Source: Leucobacter chromiiresistens (GTDB taxonomy: Bacteria; Actinomycetota; Actinomycetes; Actinomycetales; Microbacteriaceae). Taken from it: DNA of 64,000 bases. Position 1 is the stretch's first letter. Each line of letters begins with the position of its first letter. The notes under the pieces were generated by a model. The model was not told where the DNA came from, searched no databases, and worked only from the letters and a program-made list of their open reading frames with translations. The translations under genes and the position numbers were made by a program. Positions 10,757 to 19,731 of this stretch are shown one piece after another. The stretch lies in NCBI RefSeq assembly GCF_900102345.1, contig NZ_FNKB01000001.1, positions 1,612,001-1,676,000 of the forward strand, given 5' to 3'.

Positions 10757-12238
10757 ATGAGTTTCGACTGGCTCGGCGTCAACTGGCCCGTCGTCTGGGC
10801 CTGGTTCGTGCTCGTCGTCGACAACCTGATCCGCATCGTCGCACTCTTCGTCGTTCCCCGCAATCGCCGCCCGACGGCCGGGATGGCCTGGCTGATCGCG
10901 ATCTTCGCGCTGCCGGTCCCTGGGCTCCTGCTCTTCCTCATCATCGGCAGCAAGCGGCTCCCGCGGTCGCGCGAGCGCAAGCAGGACGCGATCAACCACT
11001 TCGTCGCCCAGATCGCCGACCAGGAGGAGGCGGATCTCATCACGCCGCCCGAGCGCCTGCTCCCCGGCCTCGACAGCGTCGTGAAGCTCGGCAGGCAGCT
11101 CGGCGCGCAGCCCATGCTGCAGGGCAACACGGCGTCCATCTGCATCGACTACGAGGAGTCGTTCGCCCGCATCGCCGAGGCGATCCGCGGTGCGCGGGAG
11201 TACGTGCACGTCGAGTTCTACATCCTCGTGCACGACGCCGCGACCGACGACGTGTTCGCGGCCATGCGCGAGGCGGTGGCCCGCGGCGTGACCGTGCGCG
11301 TGCTGCTCGACCACATCTCGGCCGTGCGCAACCCGGGGTCGAAGCGCACCGCGCAGAGCCTCACCGAGATCGGCGCCGAGTGGTCGTACATGCTGCCCGT
11401 GCGCCCGTGGCGCGGCGAGTACCAGCGCCCCGACCTGCGCAATCACCGCAAGATCGTGGTGGTCGACGGCGCGGTCGGCTTCATGGGCTCGCAGAACCTC
11501 GTCGATTCGTCGTACAATAAGCGCTCGAATCGGCGCCGCGGGCTGCACTGGAAGGACCTCATGGTGCGGGTCGAGGGCCCCATCGTGCTCGGGCTCGAGG
11601 CCGTGTTCCAGGGCGACTGGTACCTGGAGACGGGCGAGTACCTCACGAACCTCACCGAGGAGGCGTTCACCGTCGCCCAGCCCGGCGACCTCGACTGCCA
11701 GATCGTGCCGAGCGGGCCCGGGTACGCGGGCGAGAACAACCTCCAGGTGTTCGTCGCGCTGATGTACTCCGCGCAGCGGCGCATCAGCATCACGAGCCCG
11801 TACTTCGTGCCCGACGGCTCGATCATGAACGCGGTGCGCGCCGCGACGGCGCGCGGCGTCGAGGTGGAGCTCTTCGTCTCCGAGGTCGGCGACCAGGCCA
11901 TGGTGTACCACGCGCAGCGCTCCTACTACGAAGAGCTGCTGCGGGCGGGGGTGCGCATCATGATGTTCCGCCCGCCGTACATTCTGCACTCCAAGCACTT
12001 CACCGTCGACGAGGAGGTCGCGGTCGTCGGGTCGTCGAACATGGATCAGCGGTCGTTCGGCCTCAACATGGAGATCTCCATGGTGGTGCACGGCGCCGAG
12101 TTCGTGCGCGACCTCGACGAGGTCACCGACTACTACCGCGAGAACTCGCGCGAGCTGACCCTCGAGGAGTGGGAGCAGCAGTCGCTACCCGCGCAGCTGC
12201 TCGACGGCCTCGCGCGCCTCACCTCGGCACTCCAGTAG
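10757..12238 (+). CDS. cls: Cardiolipin synthase (phospholipase D family)
   Basis: 493 aa. It condenses phosphatidylglycerol (or uses a CDP-DAG route in some families) to make cardiolipin at the inner membrane. Two N-terminal helices (about residues 12-32 and 40-62) are followed by two PLD domains with HKD motifs: HRKIVVVDG near 229 and HSKHFTVDEEVAVVGSSN near 410, both complete. Start ATG 10757 has the strong site GGAGGGAG. The gene stands alone, with its own promoter, and is followed by a repeat-rich gap. Confidence 0.93.
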   Translation: MSFDWLGVNWPVVWAWFVLVVDNLIRIVALFVVPRNRRPTAGMAWLIAIFALPVPGLLLFLIIGSKRLPRSRERKQDAINHFVAQIADQEEADLITPPERLLPGLDSVVKLGRQLGAQPMLQGNTASICIDYEESFARIAEAIRGAREYVHVEFYILVHDAATDDVFAAMREAVARGVTVRVLLDHISAVRNPGSKRTAQSLTEIGAEWSYMLPVRPWRGEYQRPDLRNHRKIVVVDGAVGFMGSQNLVDSSYNKRSNRRRGLHWKDLMVRVEGPIVLGLEAVFQGDWYLETGEYLTNLTEEAFTVAQPGDLDCQIVPSGPGYAGENNLQVFVALMYSAQRRISITSPYFVPDGSIMNAVRAATARGVEVELFVSEVGDQAMVYHAQRSYYEELLRAGVRIMMFRPPYILHSKHFTVDEEVAVVGSSNMDQRSFGLNMEISMVVHGAEFVRDLDEVTDYYRENSRELTLEEWEQQSLPAQLLDGLARLTSALQ

Positions 12239-12481
12239 GGGCGCCCGGCACTCCGGGCGGGGGCGCTCTCGTCCGGGCGCTCCCGGCTCGCTTCTTCGGA
12301 CGCCCCCGACTCGCCGAGACCGAGGGTTCCTCTCGAGCGCGAGGGAATACTCGACGCGAATACCCTCCGTCTCGGCGCGAACCCTCGGTCTCGGCGGAAG
12401 AGCTGGCGCGCACGGGGCGGGCGGCGCGGGGCGGGCGGCACGGGGCGGGCGGCCGGCGGGCGGCACGGGGCGGCGCGGCGC
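12239..12481 (+). other. Gene-free gap rich in repeats
   Basis: 243 bases between the ends of cls (plus) and the histidine phosphatase gene (minus). It holds the composite inverted repeat at 12312-12396 and, next to the minus-strand gene, an 18-base direct repeat (12431-12448 and 12456-12473) in extremely G-rich sequence. Transcription from both sides converges here. No gene is supported. Confidence 0.8.
12312..12396. repeat. Composite inverted and direct repeat element A
   Basis: Two perfect 18-base inverted arms, CGCCGAGACCGAGGGTTC at 12312-12329 and its reverse complement at 12379-12396, enclose 49 bases. Inside, the right arm is preceded by a near copy: ACCCTCCGTCTCGGCG (12362-12377) against ACCCTCGGTCTCGGCG (12381-12396), one mismatch in 16. 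It could act as a bidirectional terminator between the convergent genes, but the spacer is long and the extra copy is unexplained by that. Confidence 0.85.
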
Positions 12482-13087
12482 TCAGAAGTCGTGCTGCTCG
12501 GCCGGGGTGCCGAGGCGCCGGATCGCGAACCGCCCGACCCCGGCACCCGCATGCGGGCCGGCGGCGGGCTCCATCAGCCAGGCCTCCCCGTTGAGGATGC
12601 GGGGCGCGGGCGCCCCGCCGAGCGCCGTGAGCGCGGAGCGGATGAGTGCGCCGTGGGCGACCACGATCGCGCCCGGCGCATCGCGGAGGATGCGTTCGAG
12701 GGCCGCGGACCCGCGCTCGGCGAGGGCCGAGAGCCCCTCGGCGTCGGGCACGTCGAGGCCAGGCCACTGCGCATTCGCGTCGGCGACGAGCATGCCCTCC
12801 GCTGATCCGAAGTCGCGCTCGATCACGTCGGCGACGACCTCCGCCGGGGGCAGCGCGAGCCGGTCGGCGATGATCCGCGCGGTCTCGGCCGCCCGGCCGA
12901 GCGGGGACGTGATGACGCGTCGCCACGGGCCCTCGCCGTGCAGCAGCTCCGCGATCTCGCCGGCCTGCGCGCGGCCGCGCTCGTTCAGGGCGATGTCGGT
13001 GCGCCCCTGGATGCGGCGACCGATGTTCCAGTCGGTTTCGCCGTGCCGGACGATGACGATGGAGGATGCGCGGGTGTCGGTGGTCAT
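12482..13087 (-). CDS. Histidine phosphatase family protein (phosphoglycerate mutase-like)
   Basis: 201 aa. The catalytic motif RHGE is at residues 14-17 (VRHGETDWNIGRRIQGRTD), and the second active-site His is in VVAHGALIRS near 145. This fold includes acid phosphatases, alpha-ribazole phosphatase and phosphoglycerate mutases; sequence alone does not choose, but monomeric phosphatase is most likely. Its ATG overlaps the stop of the ABC ATPase (ATGA at 13087-13084), so it is the last gene of the importer operon and probably acts on the imported compound. Confidence 0.85.
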   Translation of the reverse strand: MTTDTRASSIVIVRHGETDWNIGRRIQGRTDIALNERGRAQAGEIAELLHGEGPWRRVITSPLGRAAETARIIADRLALPPAEVVADVIERDFGSAEGMLVADANAQWPGLDVPDAEGLSALAERGSAALERILRDAPGAIVVAHGALIRSALTALGGAPAPRILNGEAWLMEPAAGPHAGAGVGRFAIRRLGTPAEQHDF

Positions 13088-14328
13088 GCTCCCACGCTAA
13101 CCGGTCGGCGCGGTGCGCCGGGTGCGGGGTCCGCGTCGGGCCCGCCCGAGGGGGCGCCGCCCTCCGCGCCGTCGGCGCCCCCGTTCCGCGCCCCCGCCCC
13201 CGCGCTCCGCGCCGCCCCCGGTTCCGCGCCGGCGGCGCCCGCGCGGAAGGCCGCGGCCCGTTCGATCTCCACGCGCACGCGGGTGCCCGCGGGGCATCGC
13301 ACGCCCTGCGCGCGCGACCGGATGGCGAGGCCGTGCCAGTCGAGCACGAGGTCGTCGCCGCTCCGGCCGAAGAGCGACGAGGTGACGGTCGCCGGCCCCG
13401 ATGGGTCGGGGATCGCGCGCACGTGCTCGGGCTGCACGGCGAGGTCGACGGCGATGCCCGCCCCGCTCGCGGTCCCGGCCCCTCGGGTCATCCCCGCCGC
13501 TCGGGCCATCCCCGCCGCGCCGTCGATCCGCGCGCCGTCGAGCGCGAACGGATGGCCGTCGGCGCGGAAGCCGGCGGCGTCGAGCGAACCCCGCAGGATC
13601 GCAGCGTCGGAGACGAACTCGGCGACGAAGGCCGACGCGGGCCGTTCGAGCAGTTCGGCGGGTGTGCCGACCTGCTGGATGCGGCCGCCGTCCACGACGA
13701 CGACGCGGTCGGCGAGTGCGAGCGCCTCGCTCCGATCGTGGGTGACGTGCACCACGGTCAAGCCGAGCTCGCGAGTGAGCGCGCGGAGCTCGAGGCGCAG
13801 GCGATCCCGCAGCGGTTCGTCGAGCGCGGAGAGGGCCTCGTCGAGCAGCAGCACGCGCGGCCGCGCGACGATCGCCCGAGCGATCGCGACGCGCTGCCGC
13901 TGCCCGCCCGAGAGCGTGGCCGGGTTCCGCCGCTCGGCGCCGGGCAGGCCGACGAGGTCGAGGGCCTCGGCGACGCGGCGGCGGCGCTCGGCACGCCCGA
14001 CTCCCGCGCGCCGCAGCGGGTACTCGATGTTGCGGCCCACGTTCCAGTGCGGCCACACGGCGTGCTGCTGGAACACCATGCCGAGCCCGCGCCGTTCGGG
14101 TTCGACGCTGCGCCCGGGCGACGCGACGACGGCATCGCCGATGCGCACGGTGCCGGCCGTCGGCGCGATGAAGCCGGCGACGGTGCGCAGCAGCGTGGTC
14201 TTGCCCGATCCGGAGGGGCCGACGAGCGCGATGAACTCGCCGTCTCCGATGCGGAGATCGACGTCGGCGAGGCCCAGATGGCCGCCGGGGTAGGCGAGAC
14301 TGACGGATTCGAGTGCGACGGAGGACAC
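13084..14328 (-). CDS. ABC importer ATP-binding protein (iron/2-aminoethylphosphonate type)
   Basis: 414 aa. Nucleotide-binding domain about 1-235: Walker A GPSGSGKT at 37-44, signature LSGGQRQR near 137, Walker B VLLLDEALSALDE near 160, and the H-loop VTHDRSEALAL. A C-terminal TOBE-like region (about 255-350) is interrupted by an Ala/Gly/Met-rich stretch, and the last 65 residues are low-complexity Ala/Gly/Pro, probably disordered. The closest broad families are FbpC and PotA/PhnT. It lies seven bases from the permease and overlaps the histidine phosphatase gene. Confidence 0.88.
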   Translation of the reverse strand: MSSVALESVSLAYPGGHLGLADVDLRIGDGEFIALVGPSGSGKTTLLRTVAGFIAPTAGTVRIGDAVVASPGRSVEPERRGLGMVFQQHAVWPHWNVGRNIEYPLRRAGVGRAERRRRVAEALDLVGLPGAERRNPATLSGGQRQRVAIARAIVARPRVLLLDEALSALDEPLRDRLRLELRALTRELGLTVVHVTHDRSEALALADRVVVVDGGRIQQVGTPAELLERPASAFVAEFVSDAAILRGSLDAAGFRADGHPFALDGARIDGAAGMARAAGMTRGAGTASGAGIAVDLAVQPEHVRAIPDPSGPATVTSSLFGRSGDDLVLDWHGLAIRSRAQGVRCPAGTRVRVEIERAAAFRAGAAGAEPGAARSAGAGARNGGADGAEGGAPSGGPDADPAPGAPRRPVSVGA

Positions 14329-14335
14329 GGGGCTC

Positions 14336-16045
14336 CTAACGGGGGGTGCGGGCGGTGAGGCCGAGGCCGGCGAGCCCGACGACGGCGACGATGAGGGAGA
14401 GCGCTGACGACGCGTTGTAGGCGCCGGCCTGCTGCAGGTTGAAGATGACCACTCCGAGCGTCTGCGACCCGGGCGAGAGCAGCAGCACGGAGAGGGTGAG
14501 CTCGCGCACGGCCGTGAGCGCGACGAGCACGGCGCCGGAGATCGCGGCGGGCACGGCCATGCGGCACGAGATGTCCCAGAGCGCCCGCAGGCGGGTGGCG
14601 CCGGAGACGCGCGCCGCCTCCTCGGCGGTGGTCGGCGTCGCGGAGAGCGGGGCGTGCACCGACTGCACCACGAGCGCGAGGAACGACGTCAGGTAGGCGC
14701 AGAGGATCAGCCACGGCGTGTTGTACAGTCCGATCCGCGGCGCGATTACGAGCCACGCGACGGCGATGACGAGCCCTGGAATCGCCTGGGGCAGCAGGGA
14801 GAGGCCGAGCAGCGCGGGGTTGCTGCGCGCGCGGGTGCGGGTGACGAACGTGCCGATCCCGAGCCCGAGCACCCCGCAGATGAGCCCGGCGAGGGTCGCG
14901 AGCATGAGCGAGTTGCCGATGCCGGTGAGCGTGCCCGAGGCGCCGAGGGCGCGGCCGAAGCTCGCGAGCGTCACGGTCTCGGGGCTCAGCGGCACGCCCG
15001 GGGCGGGCAGCAGCGACTGGATCGCGAGCGTGATGAGCGGGAGCACGGTGGCCGCCAGCACGACGGTCGCCGTCAGCGCCCCGACTGCGGCGCGTGCACG
15101 GCCGAGGGGGAGCAGCGCCGGCGAGCCGGCCTGGGCGTCGAGCTCGACGCGGGTGCGTGCGCGCATGAGGTCGACGACGACGCCGAGCAGCGCGATGACG
15201 AGCAGCACGAAGCCGATGGCCGAGACCACGGCCAGCGGGTCGTCGACCGTGCCCGACTGGAGGTAGCGGTAGACGAGCGTGGAGAGGGTGACGTAGCGCT
15301 CGGGGAGGCCGATGATCGAGGGGATGCCGAAGTCGGCGAGGTTCGACACGGCGATGAGGGTGAGCGAGGAGAGCATAGCGGGGCGCAGCAGCGGAGTGGT
15401 GACCTCCCAGAGCGCGCGCGGCGCCGACGAGCCGGCGATGCGGGCCGCCTGCTCGAGGTCCGCGGGCACGCGGCGGAGGGCCGCCGTGACGATCATCATC
15501 GCGATCGGGTAGCTGTGGAGGGTGAGGAGGAAGACGACGCCGTCGCCGCCGTACAGGTTCCACAGGGGCGCCCCGAAGCGCTGCGACCAGAGCGTGTTGA
15601 CGGTCGACGACGGGCCGAGGAGGCTGAGCCACGCGATCGCGCCGACGAAGGGCGGCATGAGCATGGGGCTGAGCGCGAGCATGCGGAGCGCGCGGCGGCC
15701 CGGCAGGTCGGTGCGCTCGAGCAGCAGGGCGAGGGCGGTGCCGATCACCACGGCGAGCACGGCCGAGAGCGCGGCGGAGACGAGGGAGTTGCGTGCGGCT
15801 CCGAGCACGTCGGGATCGCCGAGCGCCGACCAGCCGCCGCCGGTCGCGGCCAGCGCGAGGATCGCGGCGATCGGCACGAGCACGAGCGCGGCGACCGCGC
15901 ACCACAGGGCGACGCGCACCGCTCCGAGGCCGTCGAGCCGGGCGCGCGGCCGTGGTGCGGGGCGGCCAGTGCGGCCCCCACGGGCCCGGCCGAAGCCGGT
16001 CGGGCCCGCGAGCGGCCGGGCGAGGGTGCTACTGGAAGAGGCCAT
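14336..16045 (-). CDS. ABC importer permease, duplicated (FbpB/PhnU-like)
   Basis: 569 aa with about twelve membrane helices. It is two fused permease halves, each with an EAA-like cytoplasmic loop: DLEQAARIAGSSAPRALWEV near 205 and AEEAARVSGATRLRALWDI near 475. This layout is typical of iron(III) and 2-aminoethylphosphonate importers, where one chain does the work of two. The basic N-terminus (about 40 residues) is cytoplasmic. The start overlaps the binding-protein gene by 17 bases. Confidence 0.9.
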   Translation of the reverse strand: MASSSSTLARPLAGPTGFGRARGGRTGRPAPRPRARLDGLGAVRVALWCAVAALVLVPIAAILALAATGGGWSALGDPDVLGAARNSLVSAALSAVLAVVIGTALALLLERTDLPGRRALRMLALSPMLMPPFVGAIAWLSLLGPSSTVNTLWSQRFGAPLWNLYGGDGVVFLLTLHSYPIAMMIVTAALRRVPADLEQAARIAGSSAPRALWEVTTPLLRPAMLSSLTLIAVSNLADFGIPSIIGLPERYVTLSTLVYRYLQSGTVDDPLAVVSAIGFVLLVIALLGVVVDLMRARTRVELDAQAGSPALLPLGRARAAVGALTATVVLAATVLPLITLAIQSLLPAPGVPLSPETVTLASFGRALGASGTLTGIGNSLMLATLAGLICGVLGLGIGTFVTRTRARSNPALLGLSLLPQAIPGLVIAVAWLVIAPRIGLYNTPWLILCAYLTSFLALVVQSVHAPLSATPTTAEEAARVSGATRLRALWDISCRMAVPAAISGAVLVALTAVRELTLSVLLLSPGSQTLGVVIFNLQQAGAYNASSALSLIVAVVGLAGLGLTARTPR

Positions 16046-17057
16046 TGAACGTCTCGACGGCGTCGGCCTGTGACGCCCGGATGGTCTCGAGGTCGGGGTT
16101 CAGCAGCGTGATGTCGCCGATCGCGGGTGCGCCCTCGGGGCTCTCGACGTCGTCGCGGATCGGCAGGTACGACTGCGATGCGGCGATCTCCTGCCCCTCC
16201 CGGCTGATGAGGAAGTCGACGAAGAGCTGCGACGCCTCGGCCTCCTCGGTGTCGGCGAAGATGCCGACCGGCTGCGACACGAACGGAACGCCCTCCTCCG
16301 GGTAGACGGCCTCGATGGGCGATCCCGCCGCGGCGAGGTCGCGCACGAGGGAGTCGACCACGATGCCGACGGGGCTGCTGCCCTCGGCGACGGCCTGCGA
16401 GACCGGGCCGTTGCTCTCGGCGATGAGCGGCTCGTTGGCGGCGAGGCCCTCGAGCCAAGCCAAGCCGAGCGCGTCCTCGTCGAGCCACACCGCCGCGTTG
16501 TAGGCTGCGGCCCCCGAGACGTCGGGGTTCGGCATCGCGATCTTGCCCGCGTACTCGGGGTCGGTGAGATCCTGCCACGAGGTCGGCGCCTCGTCGATCG
16601 CGTTCGTGTTGACGGCGATGACGGTCGGCAGGAGGCGCGTGCCGACGTAGAAGTGCTCGGGGTCGACGAGATCCTGGTTGATCGCCTCCGCCTCGGGGGA
16701 TGCGTACTCGAGCAGCAGGTCGCGCTCCGCGTAGTCCTCGAACGTGCCGGCGTCGGCGGCGAGGAGCAGATCGGCGCCGATGTCGCCCGCCTTCTCCTCG
16801 GCGGCGATGCGTGCGGTGAGGTCTCCGGTGCCGGCGCGGAAGACGTCGACCGTGATCTCGGGGTGCTGCTCGCCGAACGCTGCGACGATCGCGTCGATCT
16901 TCTCCTGCGGCTCGGAGGTGTAGAGGGTGATGGTCGACGCCTCCGCAGCGTCGGTGGCGCTGGTATCGGCGGCGTCTGCCGAGGCGGCGCAGCCGGTGAG
17001 TGCGAGGGCCGATAGGGCGAAGGCGGCGATGACGCCGGTGGAGCGATTACGAGACAT
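16029..17057 (-). CDS. ABC importer substrate-binding lipoprotein
   Basis: 342 aa. Signal peptide with lipobox ALTGC (Cys 23), then an acidic linker and a binding-protein fold beginning TITLYTSEPQEKIDAIVAAF, the pattern of the extracellular iron/AEP/thiamine binding family. DPEYAGKIAMPNPDVSGAA is typical of 2-aminoethylphosphonate or ferric-ion binding members. The metal-binding Tyr pair of ferric-binding proteins is not obvious, so an organic phosphate or phosphonate is as likely as iron. Translation overlaps both neighbours. Confidence 0.88.
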   Translation of the reverse strand: MSRNRSTGVIAAFALSALALTGCAASADAADTSATDAAEASTITLYTSEPQEKIDAIVAAFGEQHPEITVDVFRAGTGDLTARIAAEEKAGDIGADLLLAADAGTFEDYAERDLLLEYASPEAEAINQDLVDPEHFYVGTRLLPTVIAVNTNAIDEAPTSWQDLTDPEYAGKIAMPNPDVSGAAAYNAAVWLDEDALGLAWLEGLAANEPLIAESNGPVSQAVAEGSSPVGIVVDSLVRDLAAAGSPIEAVYPEEGVPFVSQPVGIFADTEEAEASQLFVDFLISREGQEIAASQSYLPIRDDVESPEGAPAIGDITLLNPDLETIRASQADAVETFNGLFQ

Positions 17058-17862
17058 GGGTCGCTTTCTGTGCGGTGCGGATGATGGGTTGGGTGAAGAG
17101 GGGTTCGGGGGAGTGGAGCGCGACGGTCGACGCGCTGACGCCCTCGGCGGTGAACTGCACGAGGGAGAACATGGGGGAGTCGTGGCCGGCCACGGCGTCG
17201 GGGCCGGCGTTCATCACCTGGTGGTAGGCGAGCGACGGGCCGACGAACACCGGGATCCCGTGCACCGAGGCCGAGAGGCTGTGGTGGAAGTGGCCGGCGA
17301 GGATCGCCCGCACATCGGCGCCGTCGAGCACCCCGAGCAGGGCGTCGGCGTTGCGCAGCCCCTGGCGCCGGAGCGTCGGCAGGGGCGACCCGAGCGGGGC
17401 GTGGTGCAGGGCGACGATCGTGCCGCGCTCCGACGGCCGGGCGAGTTCGTCGCGGAGCCAGGCGAGCTGCTCGGCGTCGATGCTGCCGGTGTGCGAATCG
17501 AGGCGCAGCACCCGGAAGCCGTCGATGCGGTGCGCGGCGGTGTGGCCGGCGATGTGCCCGGGGAGCGCCCGTGCGGCGCGGGGGTCGTCGTGGTTGCCGA
17601 GCACGGTGAGCACGGGGGCGCCGAGGCGATCCTGCAGGCGCTCGCACCCCGCCGCGACGGCCGCGTACGCGCCGGGGTTGCCGCGCTCGATGAGGTCTCC
17701 GGTCACGACGACCGCCTCGGGGGTGATGCCGGTCGCGAGGGCGTACTCGCCGACCCGCTCCAAGCGGCCGACCCCGTCGACCGCGTCGTAGAGCAGGCCG
17801 CTCTCGGTCGCGTGGAGGTCGCTCACGTGGAGCACCGTGAACCGGCCGGTGTCGCGGCTCAT
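17047..17862 (-). CDS. Metallophosphoesterase (Icc-like phosphodiesterase)
   Basis: 271 aa calcineurin-like phosphoesterase with all five metal motifs: DLH at 15-17, GDLIERG near 51, GNHDD near 83, HHAP near 152 and GHFHHS near 190. Closest in layout to cyclic-nucleotide or glycerophosphodiester phosphodiesterases. No signal peptide, so it acts in the cytosol. The start at 17862 is set by the ATGA overlap with the tyrosine phosphatase stop; it overlaps the binding-protein start by 11 bases. Context suggests hydrolysis of an imported phosphodiester. Confidence 0.87.
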   Translation of the reverse strand: MSRDTGRFTVLHVSDLHATESGLLYDAVDGVGRLERVGEYALATGITPEAVVVTGDLIERGNPGAYAAVAAGCERLQDRLGAPVLTVLGNHDDPRAARALPGHIAGHTAAHRIDGFRVLRLDSHTGSIDAEQLAWLRDELARPSERGTIVALHHAPLGSPLPTLRRQGLRNADALLGVLDGADVRAILAGHFHHSLSASVHGIPVFVGPSLAYHQVMNAGPDAVAGHDSPMFSLVQFTAEGVSASTVALHSPEPLFTQPIIRTAQKATHVS

Positions 17863-18572
17863 GCGACCGGCTCCGCGATGACCGCGGTGCGGCCGCCGGC
17901 CCGCTCGGCGAGGGCCGCGAGGGCCGCGAGGTGGGCGTCGCCGGCGCCGTGCGTGCGGAGGTAGTGCGCCACCCCGCCGAGCTCGTCGACGATGTCGAGC
18001 GCCGCCTCCAGGGCCTCCGCTGGGCTGTCGAGGTGCAGGCGCTCGGAGGCGGCGCGCGCCTCCGCTGTCAGCCCGAGGCCCGACAGCTGCGCCGCGGCGA
18101 TCGCCTGCCGCGCCGGCCGCACCGCCGCCCCCGACGCGGCGTAGTCGGCGACGACGTCGGCGCGAGCGTCGCCTGCGGCGAGCCGGGCGATCGCGACGAC
18201 GAGCCCCGTGCGGTCCTTGCCCGCCGTGCAGTGCACGACGGCGGTGCCGGGGTGCTCGGCGATGGCGATGACGGCGGCGGCGAGGCGGGCGCCGCGCTCG
18301 CGCACCAGCCCCGCGTAGACCGTCTCGAGGCTTCCCGAGGCGGGTGGGGTCTCGCCGTAGAGCGGCACGGAGCGCACGGGGATCGCGTGCGAGCGCCCGG
18401 CGTGCTCCGCGCCCTCCCGCAGGTCGATGACGAGATCGACGCCGACGTCGCGGAGCGTGCGCTCGCCGCCGGCCGTGAGCGCGTCGAGGCCGGCCGACCG
18501 CACGAGCCACGGCCGGCGCCCGCTCCCGATGCCCCGCGCGTTGTAGCTGCCCTCGAGCGTGATGACGTGCAC
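17859..18572 (-). CDS. Tyrosine-type protein/phosphoinositide phosphatase (PtpB-like)
   Basis: 237 aa. The P-loop is HCTAGKDRTG with nucleophile Cys 115 and Arg 121, and the family N-terminus is ALTAGGERTLRDVGVDLVIDLR. The Lys-Asp after the Gly is the signature of the MptpB/Siw14-like group, whose members can act on phosphoinositides as well as phosphotyrosine. GTG 18572 is selected because GGCAGGAG lies 9-16 bases upstream; no ATG fits. No signal peptide. First gene of the importer operon after the regulator, separated from it by 152 bases. Confidence 0.85.
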   Translation of the reverse strand: MHVITLEGSYNARGIGSGRRPWLVRSAGLDALTAGGERTLRDVGVDLVIDLREGAEHAGRSHAIPVRSVPLYGETPPASGSLETVYAGLVRERGARLAAAVIAIAEHPGTAVVHCTAGKDRTGLVVAIARLAAGDARADVVADYAASGAAVRPARQAIAAAQLSGLGLTAEARAASERLHLDSPAEALEAALDIVDELGGVAHYLRTHGAGDAHLAALAALAERAGGRTAVIAEPVA

Positions 18573-18612
18573 TGCTGCGTTCTCCTGCCTGCGAGGCCCG
18601 TTTCGCCGGGCG

Positions 18613-18627
18613 TGAAATGCGATTACA
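18613..18627. promoter_or_regulatory. Candidate RpiR-family operator
   Basis: TGAAATGCGATTACA is a near-perfect palindrome (TGAAAT / ATTACA arms, one mismatch, 3-base centre), 41 bases upstream of the phosphatase-ABC operon start. MurR/RpiR regulators often recognise TGAAA-type half-sites. It is the only AT-rich palindrome in the gap between the regulator gene and the operon. Confidence 0.5.
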
Positions 18628-18724
18628 TGAGCAGCATCTCGGGGCCGGGTGTCGCGTCGGTGAACGCGGGGAGGCGCGCGGCTGTCGGGCGGGGGAAGGA
18701 TCGAGAACCCGGGGCCGGCAGCGC

Positions 18725-19585
18725 TCAGGGGTGCGCTTCGGCGAGGGCGTCGACGACCACCTCGCGCATGTCTTCGGCGTCGGCGCCGGCGCTCGCGCGC
18801 AGCGCCGCGACCTCTGTGACGAGGGCCTGCAGCAGCACGGAGTGGCCGAGGCGGCTGAAGAAGGGGTCGACGGCGTGCGGGGTGCCGACGGCGCCGGTCG
18901 AGAGGGCGACGTCGGAGAGGTCGGCGAGCGGCCCGCGGTCGTAGCTGCAGAGCGAGACCACGCGCGCGCCCCGGCGGCGCGCTGCGCGCACCGTCGCGAG
19001 CGTGTGCGCGTTCGCGCCGGAGTGGCTGAGCGCGAAGCAGACGTCGCCGGCCGTCAGGCTGTGCGCTGCGAACTGCTGCGCAAGGATGTCGAGGGGGGCT
19101 TCGACGGGTCGCCCCACGGTCGCCAGGCGCATCGCCGCGTCCTGGAGCGGCGGAGCCGAGAACCCGTTGGCGGCGCAGACGACGCGCGACGCCTCCGCGA
19201 GCAGCGTCGCCGCATCGGCGAGCGCGCCCCGGTCGATCGAGGAGCGCCCCACGAGCAGGGCCGCGCGCGCGCTCTCGAACACGTGGTCGACGGTGTCGCC
19301 CGGCGTCGGCTGCTCGGCGAGCGGCGCCGGCGCCTCGCGCGCGAGTTCGAGGCGCAGGTGCTGGAAGCCGCGGAAGCCGAGGCGCTGACAGGCGCGGATC
19401 ACGGTGGCGGTCGACGTGCCGGCCGCCGCGGCGAGCTCCTGCGTCGACCACTGCGGCACCTCTGCGGGGCGCTCGAGGATGACGCGGGCGACCGCGCCCT
19501 CGCGCTCGCCGAGGGTGGCGGCGAACGCGCGGATGAGCGCGAGCGCCGATGCGGGGGTCGCGGGAGGCATCGGGGTCGGCGGCAT
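18725..19585 (-). CDS. MurR/RpiR family transcriptional regulator
   Basis: 286 aa. N-terminal HTH_6 domain (about 1-80; QELAAAAGTSTATVIRACQRLGFRGFQHLRLEL) given in parts: TSTATVIRACQRLGF is the recognition helix. The SIS phosphosugar-binding domain is at about 115-250, with SHSGANAHTLATVRAARRRGA. ATG 19585 is preferred; an in-frame extension to 19666 would run through a tandem repeat and lacks family similarity. Such regulators usually sense a phosphorylated sugar, which fits the phosphatase-rich operon it faces in the same direction. Confidence 0.87.
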   Translation of the reverse strand: MPPTPMPPATPASALALIRAFAATLGEREGAVARVILERPAEVPQWSTQELAAAAGTSTATVIRACQRLGFRGFQHLRLELAREAPAPLAEQPTPGDTVDHVFESARAALLVGRSSIDRGALADAATLLAEASRVVCAANGFSAPPLQDAAMRLATVGRPVEAPLDILAQQFAAHSLTAGDVCFALSHSGANAHTLATVRAARRRGARVVSLCSYDRGPLADLSDVALSTGAVGTPHAVDPFFSRLGHSVLLQALVTEVAALRASAGADAEDMREVVVDALAEAHP

Positions 19586-19634
19586 GCGTTCACGGTAGGC
19601 GGCTCCGGTGAACGCCGGGTGTCGCGCGAATGGA

Positions 19635-19731
19635 CTGCGCGGGTCGGCTGCGCGGGTCGGCTGCACGGGTCGGCCGGCCGGCTGCGCGGGTCGGCTGCCC
19701 GGCTGCGCGGGCGGCTACTCGGCTGCTCCGG
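19635..19731. repeat. Degenerate 13-base tandem repeat
   Basis: CTGCGCGGGTCGG occurs at 19635-19647, 19648-19660 and 19682-19694, with CTGCACGGGTCGG at 19661-19673 and shorter 8-12 base variants continuing to about 19731. It lies between the regulator start and the stop of the HTH gene and is non-coding on the preferred starts. Confidence 0.8.

Follow-up and report, generated by a model that had tools for sequence, protein, structure and literature searches.

A conserved actinobacterial operon of an AfuA-type importer, three phosphoesterases and an RpiR regulator, with predicted control by phosphate

The seven genes and their conservation

We analysed a 64,000-base stretch of the Leucobacter chromiiresistens genome (contig NZ_FNKB01000001.1, positions 1,612,001 to 1,676,000; hereafter the window, numbered from its first base) for an operon that joins an ATP-binding cassette (ABC) importer to a PtpB-like phosphatase, a metallophosphoesterase, a histidine phosphatase and a MurR/RpiR-family regulator. 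An earlier note, made from the letters alone, had described seven minus-strand genes at 12482-19585, six of them overlapping or at most seven bases apart. All seven reading frames were found there, and the measured gaps, downward from rpiR, were 152, -4, -11, -17, 7 and -4 bases. The "duplicated permease" of that note proved to be two BPD_transp_1 stretches within a single 569-residue protein. In the order of transcription, the genes are:

18725..19585, minus strand: MurR/RpiR-family regulator of 286 residues with HTH_6 and SIS domains (Pfam; SIS motif SHSGAN)
17859..18572, minus strand: PtpB-like phosphatase of 237 residues, Y_phosphatase3 (Pfam), with a GTG start at 18572 and the P-loop HCTAGKDRTG
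17047..17862, minus strand: calcineurin-type metallophosphoesterase, Metallophos (Pfam, NCBIfam, solved-chain match), nearest solved relative Rv0805
16029..17057, minus strand: binding lipoprotein of 342 residues with the lipobox LTGC, matching SBP_bac_6, SBP_bac_11, SBP_bac_8 and SBP_bac_1 in Pfam; nearest characterised relatives AfuA and P5PA
14336..16045, minus strand: fused two-unit ABC permease of 569 residues (Pfam, NCBIfam)
13084..14328, minus strand: ABC ATPase of 414 residues, ABC_tran (Pfam, NCBIfam), with a GTG start at 14328
12482..13087, minus strand: branch 1 histidine phosphatase of 201 residues, His_Phos_1 (Pfam, NCBIfam), with the motif RHGET

Conservation of the set was examined by aligning 15 binding proteins and then scanning one genome per species. 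The scan matched 83 stretches, 74 of them coding for a relative, and 73 distinct loci were retained. The seven proteins of the window served as queries against each locus. A gene counted as present if a match on the same strand, wherever in the locus it lay, reached 60 bits, or 150 for the ATPase; broken genes in two loci (L079 and L101) counted where a fragment reached 60 bits. Sixty-eight loci were covered far enough on both sides, in an uneven sample with many Leucobacter, and in 49 of these the binding protein was accompanied by its full set of six partners. The histidine phosphatase alone was absent from five, the PtpB-like gene alone from two, both from three and rpiR alone from one. The transporter was accompanied only by the PtpB-like gene in two loci (L069 and L070, from one strain and alike in every match) and only by a divergent phosphoesterase in one (L098). 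Over all loci that could be judged, rpiR was present in 63/72, the PtpB-like gene in 61/72, the phosphoesterase in 65/72 and the histidine phosphatase in 52/69.

Complete sets occur, by record title, in Leucobacter, Planctomonas, Microbacterium, Pseudoclavibacter, Labedella, Zimmermannella, Agrococcus, Frigoribacterium, Rhodococcus, Yaniella, Auritidibacter and Sediminivirga. Because the same order recurs across so many genera, as the earlier note had thought worth establishing, the gene set is a real conserved module, beyond chance. Its proposal that the importer and several phosphoesterases form a unit is borne out by the complete loci and by the intact catalytic motifs described below, and far from being absent from most homologous loci, a possibility it had raised, at least one phosphatase was present in 63 of the 68. 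In four loci (L092, L095, L096 and L099) the histidine phosphatase gene lies upstream of rpiR instead, which indicates that the set survives rearrangement. The genes flanking the module vary between genera (19 loci, translations judged by eye). Clustering of reading frames and a listing of the neighbours of these 19 loci revealed no recurrent flanking gene that names the substrate; the five clusters reaching past one genus were shadow frames, Leucobacter lysS, short-chain dehydrogenases and transporters (translations read by eye, without a family search).

The distribution of the system is patchy. A close copy (E below 1e-160) was found in 15 of 37 Leucobacter genomes, including the one studied here, a match at E 1e-50 in 4 of 394 genomes of the class, and the binding protein in 3 of 30 Nesterenkonia genomes. 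One complete operon, with a binding protein 63% identical, lies in a record titled Vibrio cholerae strain 35D (L061, WNZI01000002.1); the other matches are actinobacterial, and the record is probably a mislabelled or contaminated assembly. The broken operon genes of L079 and L101 belong to a Cryobacterium metagenome-assembled genome (MAG) and a Rathayibacter, and L079 also has no clear operator of the kind described next.

The control region

The 152-base gap 5' of the second gene and the region 5' of rpiR hold the following elements:

18644..18665, minus strand: PHO box of the structural operon, two 11-mers, GTTCACCGACG + CGACACCCGGC; its GTTCACC lies 38 bases from the -10, like the second unit before pstS
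18622..18627, minus strand: putative -10 of the structural operon, TGTAAT; a TGTAAY-like element precedes the operator at most listed loci
18600..18626, minus strand: putative RpiR operator, GTAATCGCATTTCACGCCCGGCGAAAC, core dyad 18600-18618; sole match in its own genome at up to two mismatches, and tracks rpiR
19607..19624, minus strand: PHO-box-like unit 5' of rpiR, GTTCACC (19607-19613) with a degenerate upstream 11-mer
19592..19597, minus strand: putative -10 of rpiR, TACCGT, 7 bases 5' of the ATG, proposed from the sequence

The dyad 5' of the second gene takes the form GTTTCA-N7-TGAAAC or GTTCCA-N7-TGGAAC and follows a TGTAAY that fits a -10. We scored dyad and TGTAAY elements together (maximum 18), excluding L067 and L078, which have too little upstream sequence. 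A score of at least 14 was reached at 52 of 62 loci with rpiR, at none of the nine loci without it (two of the nine being L069 and L070), and in 1 of 71 base-shuffled sequences. We then searched ten genomes, most of them picked for a clear operator, for the pattern GTAAYNNNGTTTCANNNNNNNTGAAAC, allowing no more than two mismatches. In eight of the ten the only match was the operon's own site, recognised by its letters; of the other two, one (G032) had no match at this limit and one (G060) had a single match unlike its operon's site, and a reversed control pattern matched nowhere in any of them. No dispersed RpiR regulon that might reveal a catabolic pathway was found by this search of the ten picked genomes. 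Since the operator is unique to the operon in eight of ten genomes, RpiR is most likely a dedicated, local regulator. The protein has the HTH_6 and SIS domains with the phosphosugar motif, as in MurR/RpiR regulators; over 63 RpiR frames SxSG was found in 60, and S[YHF]SGAN was counted 58 times. The overlap of the operator with the -10 and the start region suggests that RpiR would act as a repressor.

PHO boxes are described as direct repeats of 11 bases, with the motif GTTCACC in Streptomyces coelicolor (PMC4415409). As a local reference we used pstS genes from 15 Leucobacter genomes, of which 14 gave a gene above the family cut-off, and from 16 genomes outside the genus, of which 7 did so while the rest stayed below. 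The pair GTTCAC-N5-GTTCAC was found upstream at 24 of 33 pstS places; 38 bases after its second unit comes a hexamer, mostly TAGCGT-like. The L. chromiiresistens genome holds one perfect double box, before pstS, and five further places at one mismatch.

Promoters of the operon were usable (before the second or third gene) at 67 of the 73 loci; removal of those more than 80% alike left 49, of which 39 reached 14 or more for the operator. GTTCAY was in range at 31 of these 39 promoters. Its distance to the operator-defined -10 was 27, 38, 49 or 60 bases, within one base, at 31 of 33 sites, and exactly so at 22 of 33, which is the pstS phase modulo 11. With a stricter likeness limit of 60%, 18 of 24 promoters had a site and 19 of 20 sites were in phase. 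When the upstream sequences of the 39 promoters were shuffled (200 rounds), a mean of 2.5 sites and a maximum of 9 were obtained. A weight matrix built from 17 pstS promoters peaked at -11, 0 and +11 on the 49 operon promoters; the adjacent offsets formed shoulders, and all others gave background. GTTCACC is common in the window (14 sites, with 3.8 expected; for example 42691 and 42886 outside the operon), so the argument is carried by phase rather than by presence. The phasing places the operon, as far as can be predicted from sequence, in the PhoP regulon, with PhoP expected to bind the box itself.

The GTTCACC before rpiR lies 16 bases from the putative -10, two 11-base steps below the pstS spacing of 38, and a similar unit is present in 4 of 7 other Leucobacter loci inspected (L032, L033, L036 and L038; not L043, L046 or L048). 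The rpiR message is possibly leaderless, as its start point would coincide with the ATG. Directly 5' of the rpiR promoter (19626-19698) lie four copies of a 26-base GC-rich unit at spacings of 13, 13 and 21 bases. At the other end of the operon, one further element was read from the sequence:

12314..12394, no strand: possible shared terminator, a 15-base perfect inverted repeat with arms 12380-12394 and 12314-12328

This repeat sits between the histidine phosphatase gene and a convergent phospholipase-D-like gene (10757-12238), and it may possibly serve as a two-way terminator.

Enzymes, binding protein and candidate substrates

The PtpB-like protein scored 118 bits against PF13350 (cut-off 22), and its P-loop pattern HCxxGKDRTG was kept in all 61 PtpB-like proteins of the loci. 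The metallophosphoesterases kept GNHD in 65 of 65 and GHxH in 64 of 65, and RHGxT was kept in 52 of 52 histidine phosphatases. The closest solved relative of the metallophosphoesterase was Rv0805 (E 2.6e-39), and the enzyme is likely a phosphodiesterase by this kinship. The histidine phosphatase was nearest, among solved chains, to glucosyl-3-phosphoglycerate phosphatase. PtpB-like and phosphoesterase domains are joined in one reading frame in 7 of the 73 loci (L052, L071, L083, L086, L087, L088 and L094), and a search with the fused Rhodococcus form returned PF13350 and PF00149 together in 22 of 99 protein clusters. These fusions suggest that the two enzymes may act consecutively on a single substrate.

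In the locus of an Agrococcus MAG (L097), which has no histidine phosphatase, the ATPase gene is followed (11887-14353) by genes for a phosphate transporter of the PHO4 family, a DUF47 protein and an enzyme of the inositol-monophosphatase family, as expected of a pathway that yields cytosolic phosphate. Another locus without the histidine phosphatase (L084) has a similar frame 3' of the ATPase gene, where the contig stops.

The solved sequences nearest to the binding protein were 8x1a, annotated as iron-binding and for which our literature search (open access only) found no describing paper, AfuA (4r72-4r75) and P5PA (6wce). The last two both bind phosphorylated rings, which favours a phosphorylated ligand here too. 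We read the ligand-site residues by hand from a profile alignment, which compares sequences only. Four AfuA phosphate-side positions are occupied, S37 by T77, S148 by S181, G149 by G182 and S184 by S215, and T77, S181-G182 and S215 are invariant in an alignment of 27 binding proteins. Of the AfuA sugar determinants, H205 is replaced by V234 and E229 by V260, and only D206 is kept, as D235. With the phosphate side mostly kept and the sugar determinants mostly lost, the ligand is likely phosphorylated, but not glucose 6-phosphate (G6P). Three further residues, Arg141, Arg239 and Arg301, are invariant in the same alignment and could be contacts for a second anionic group.

AfuA is one of the two best solved matches, and its kinship would also fit another scheme in which the importer carries a simple hexose or heptose phosphate as AfuABC does, the imported sugar phosphate is itself the RpiR ligand, and the phosphatases bleed off the excess. 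RpiR-family SIS domains bind phosphosugars, and the solved chain nearest to the histidine phosphatase points the same way. In two closely related Nesterenkonia a gene of the 6-phosphogluconolactonase family precedes the transporter; in N. cremea (L100, 95-11809) a lone transporter comes after genes of the transketolase, transaldolase, glucose-6-phosphate isomerase, glucose-6-phosphate dehydrogenase and 6-phosphogluconolactonase families. However, the two residues replaced by valine are H205 and E229, each of which AfuA requires for G6P binding (PMC4546632). The phosphodiesterase-type enzyme is moreover the commonest of the three phosphoesterases over the judged loci, and a monoester needs none. 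In a third Nesterenkonia both upstream phosphatases accompany the transporter instead, so the sugar-gene neighbourhood looks like a single local event. A hexose-phosphate substrate deduced from this neighbourhood is further weakened by the rarity of the binding protein in the genus, given above, and by the confinement of the pgl neighbour to the two close genomes. We regard the scheme as unlikely, if the best placed of the alternatives.

The kinship with Rv0805 raises a second alternative, in which the substrate would derive from nucleotide breakdown, for example as a 2',3'-cyclic nucleotide, which the metallophosphoesterase would open and the other enzymes dephosphorylate. The best NCBIfam score of the metallophosphoesterase was with the 2',3'-cyclic-nucleotide family SpdA, at 78 bits far under the cut-off of 400. 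Yet this fold comprises families active on many diesters, SIS-type RpiR regulators respond to phosphosugars, and no nucleoside-salvage gene recurred beside the loci (neighbour translations judged by eye, without a family search). This origin of the substrate appears improbable.

That the system imports iron or 2-aminoethylphosphonate with phosphatases there by chance, as automatic annotation ("iron(III) transport system substrate-binding protein" for the relatives of the binding protein) and the top NCBIfam matches of the three transporter parts would have it, is very improbable, since these matches are all far under their cut-offs (PhnS2 132/393, PhnU2 139/593 and PhnT2 278/458 bits), the operon holds no phosphonate-degrading enzyme by Pfam, the phosphatases recur as described, and the FbpA iron ligands, which we take to be H9, Y195 and Y196, are replaced in an alignment to HitA by P50, S236 (Y or F elsewhere) and L237, so that the tyrosine pair of a ferric-ion binder, the other outcome the earlier note had contemplated, appears to be missing.

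Proposed pathway, precedents and meaning

Taken together, we think it probable that the operon encodes an organophosphate importer activated by PhoP and gated by RpiR, and that its substrate, probably a phosphodiester of a sugar or polyol, is cleaved in the cytosol. The PHO boxes and the dedicated operator, both beyond the earlier note, suggest phosphorus scavenging as its purpose and also suggest its control logic. Under phosphate scarcity PhoP would bind the PHO box 5' of the second gene; some Leucobacter have a further box 5' of rpiR, which it would bind too. Transcription would also require RpiR to leave the dyad over the -10 and start region, and the promoter would thus be under dual control, an AND gate that opens only when phosphate is short and the imported compound is there. 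An external organophosphate, most likely a phosphodiester of a sugar or polyol, would be captured by the lipoprotein and taken into the cell intact by the ABC importer. There the Rv0805-like enzyme is predicted to convert the diester to a monoester. The monoester would be the natural inducer, bound by the SIS domain of RpiR, and the PtpB-like enzyme and the histidine phosphatase would then free its phosphate.

Several observations weigh against this proposal or narrow it. The transporter stands on its own in 5 of the 68 covered loci. At 10 of the 62 rpiR loci the operator scores less than 14; in four of these RpiR itself stays under 150 bits, and in one (L079) the rpiR gene is broken. The box pair is absent from 9 of the 33 pstS places, and 8 of the 39 clear promoters have no GTTCAY in range, both retained Rhodococcus promoters among them. 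The phase count left out 10 of the 49 de-duplicated promoters because of a weak operator, and since the operon promoters are homologous, the binomial p-values for phase (about 1e-15) overstate independence and are indicative only. The DxH pattern of the first metal site is found in 59 of 65 phosphoesterases. PtpB-family enzymes are known from signalling and virulence, and the family takes in protein and phosphoinositide phosphatases, so a signalling role is possible. In the binding protein, two phosphate-side positions are unlike AfuA (T150 is A183 and T60 is D102); given these changes and the loss of two sugar determinants out of three, a different compound bearing an anionic group could also be the ligand. 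As to substrate class, the sequence data are compatible alike with a phosphodiester and with an inositol or sugar monophosphate.

The closest functional parallels appear to be two systems built of other parts, and the operon may work like either. The Acc system for agrocinopine of Agrobacterium (AccR, AccA-E, AccF and AccG) has a regulator and enzymes of other protein families and no third phosphatase; it is a Ti-plasmid opine system, and the comparison made here covers its protein parts. The likeness lies in a sugar-phosphodiester importer with a cytosolic phosphodiesterase and a phosphatase (PMC4526662), that is, an importer, a diesterase-type enzyme, a phosphatase and a regulator in one unit, as in the 49 complete loci. 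Its repressor responds to the phosphosugar product of the diesterase rather than to the imported compound (PMC4526662).

Ugp of E. coli is an ABC-type importer, and its UgpQ is cytosolic. The ugpBAECQ operon resembles ours as a Pho-regulated glycerophosphodiester importer with a diesterase (PMC4415409). It differs in that UgpB is not among the six NCBIfam matches of the Leucobacter binding protein and that our operon has no GDPD-type UgpQ and adds RpiR control and two monoesterases.

Other importers share single traits. The hexose- and heptose-phosphate importer AfuABC has the same class of binding protein and most of its phosphate-side residues, but differs in the sugar determinants; the word "phosphatase" is absent from the main text of the AfuABC paper, and RpiR or Pho control is not part of AfuABC as described there (PMC4546632). 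In the pyridoxal-phosphate importer P5PAB the phosphate is held by Ser, Thr and Gly at helix starts, positions partly kept here, but its ring contacts differ, and the published account places it in Pasteurellaceae only (PMC8427247). The 2-aminoethylphosphonate importers PhnSTUV and PhnS2-T2-U2 gave the best NCBIfam matches for all three transporter parts; PhnS2-T2-U2 differs in that every match falls short and the operon has no phosphonate-degrading gene. By the membership criteria of the Ugp, AfuABC, FbpABC and Phn families, the system falls outside all four.

The earlier note knew of no characterised system with this set. Our searches of the open-access literature likewise found no description of the gene set, or of RpiR together with Pho control; the claim holds for the exact set, and AfuABC, P5PA, Ugp and Acc are close functional precedents. 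As a kind, organophosphate import under Pho control with cleavage in the cytosol is known. For these particular parts, this dual promoter and this gene set, no description was found in the open-access literature reached. More tentatively, and with somewhat more doubt than confidence, we propose that the operon may represent a previously undescribed class of actinobacterial phosphorus-scavenging systems, with an AfuA-type importer of an intact sugar or polyol phosphodiester, a PtpB-family nutrient phosphatase (fused to the diesterase in some genera) and a PHO box/RpiR AND gate.

Whether sugar phosphates and nucleotides are imported intact or dephosphorylated outside the cell is a question posed in a 2021 review, which reports no evidence for intact sugar-phosphate transport in Streptomyces (PMC7866108). 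The operon offers a concrete candidate for intact uptake of a phosphorylated compound in actinobacteria other than Streptomyces, and the control switch predicted here could be tested with one reporter. As proved to be the case with AfuA (PMC4546632), organophosphates may be the true cargo of some binding proteins that are annotated as iron binders, and a nutritional role for PtpB-type phosphatases is suggested. If the proposal is true, actinobacteria of these genera do import phosphorylated compounds intact.

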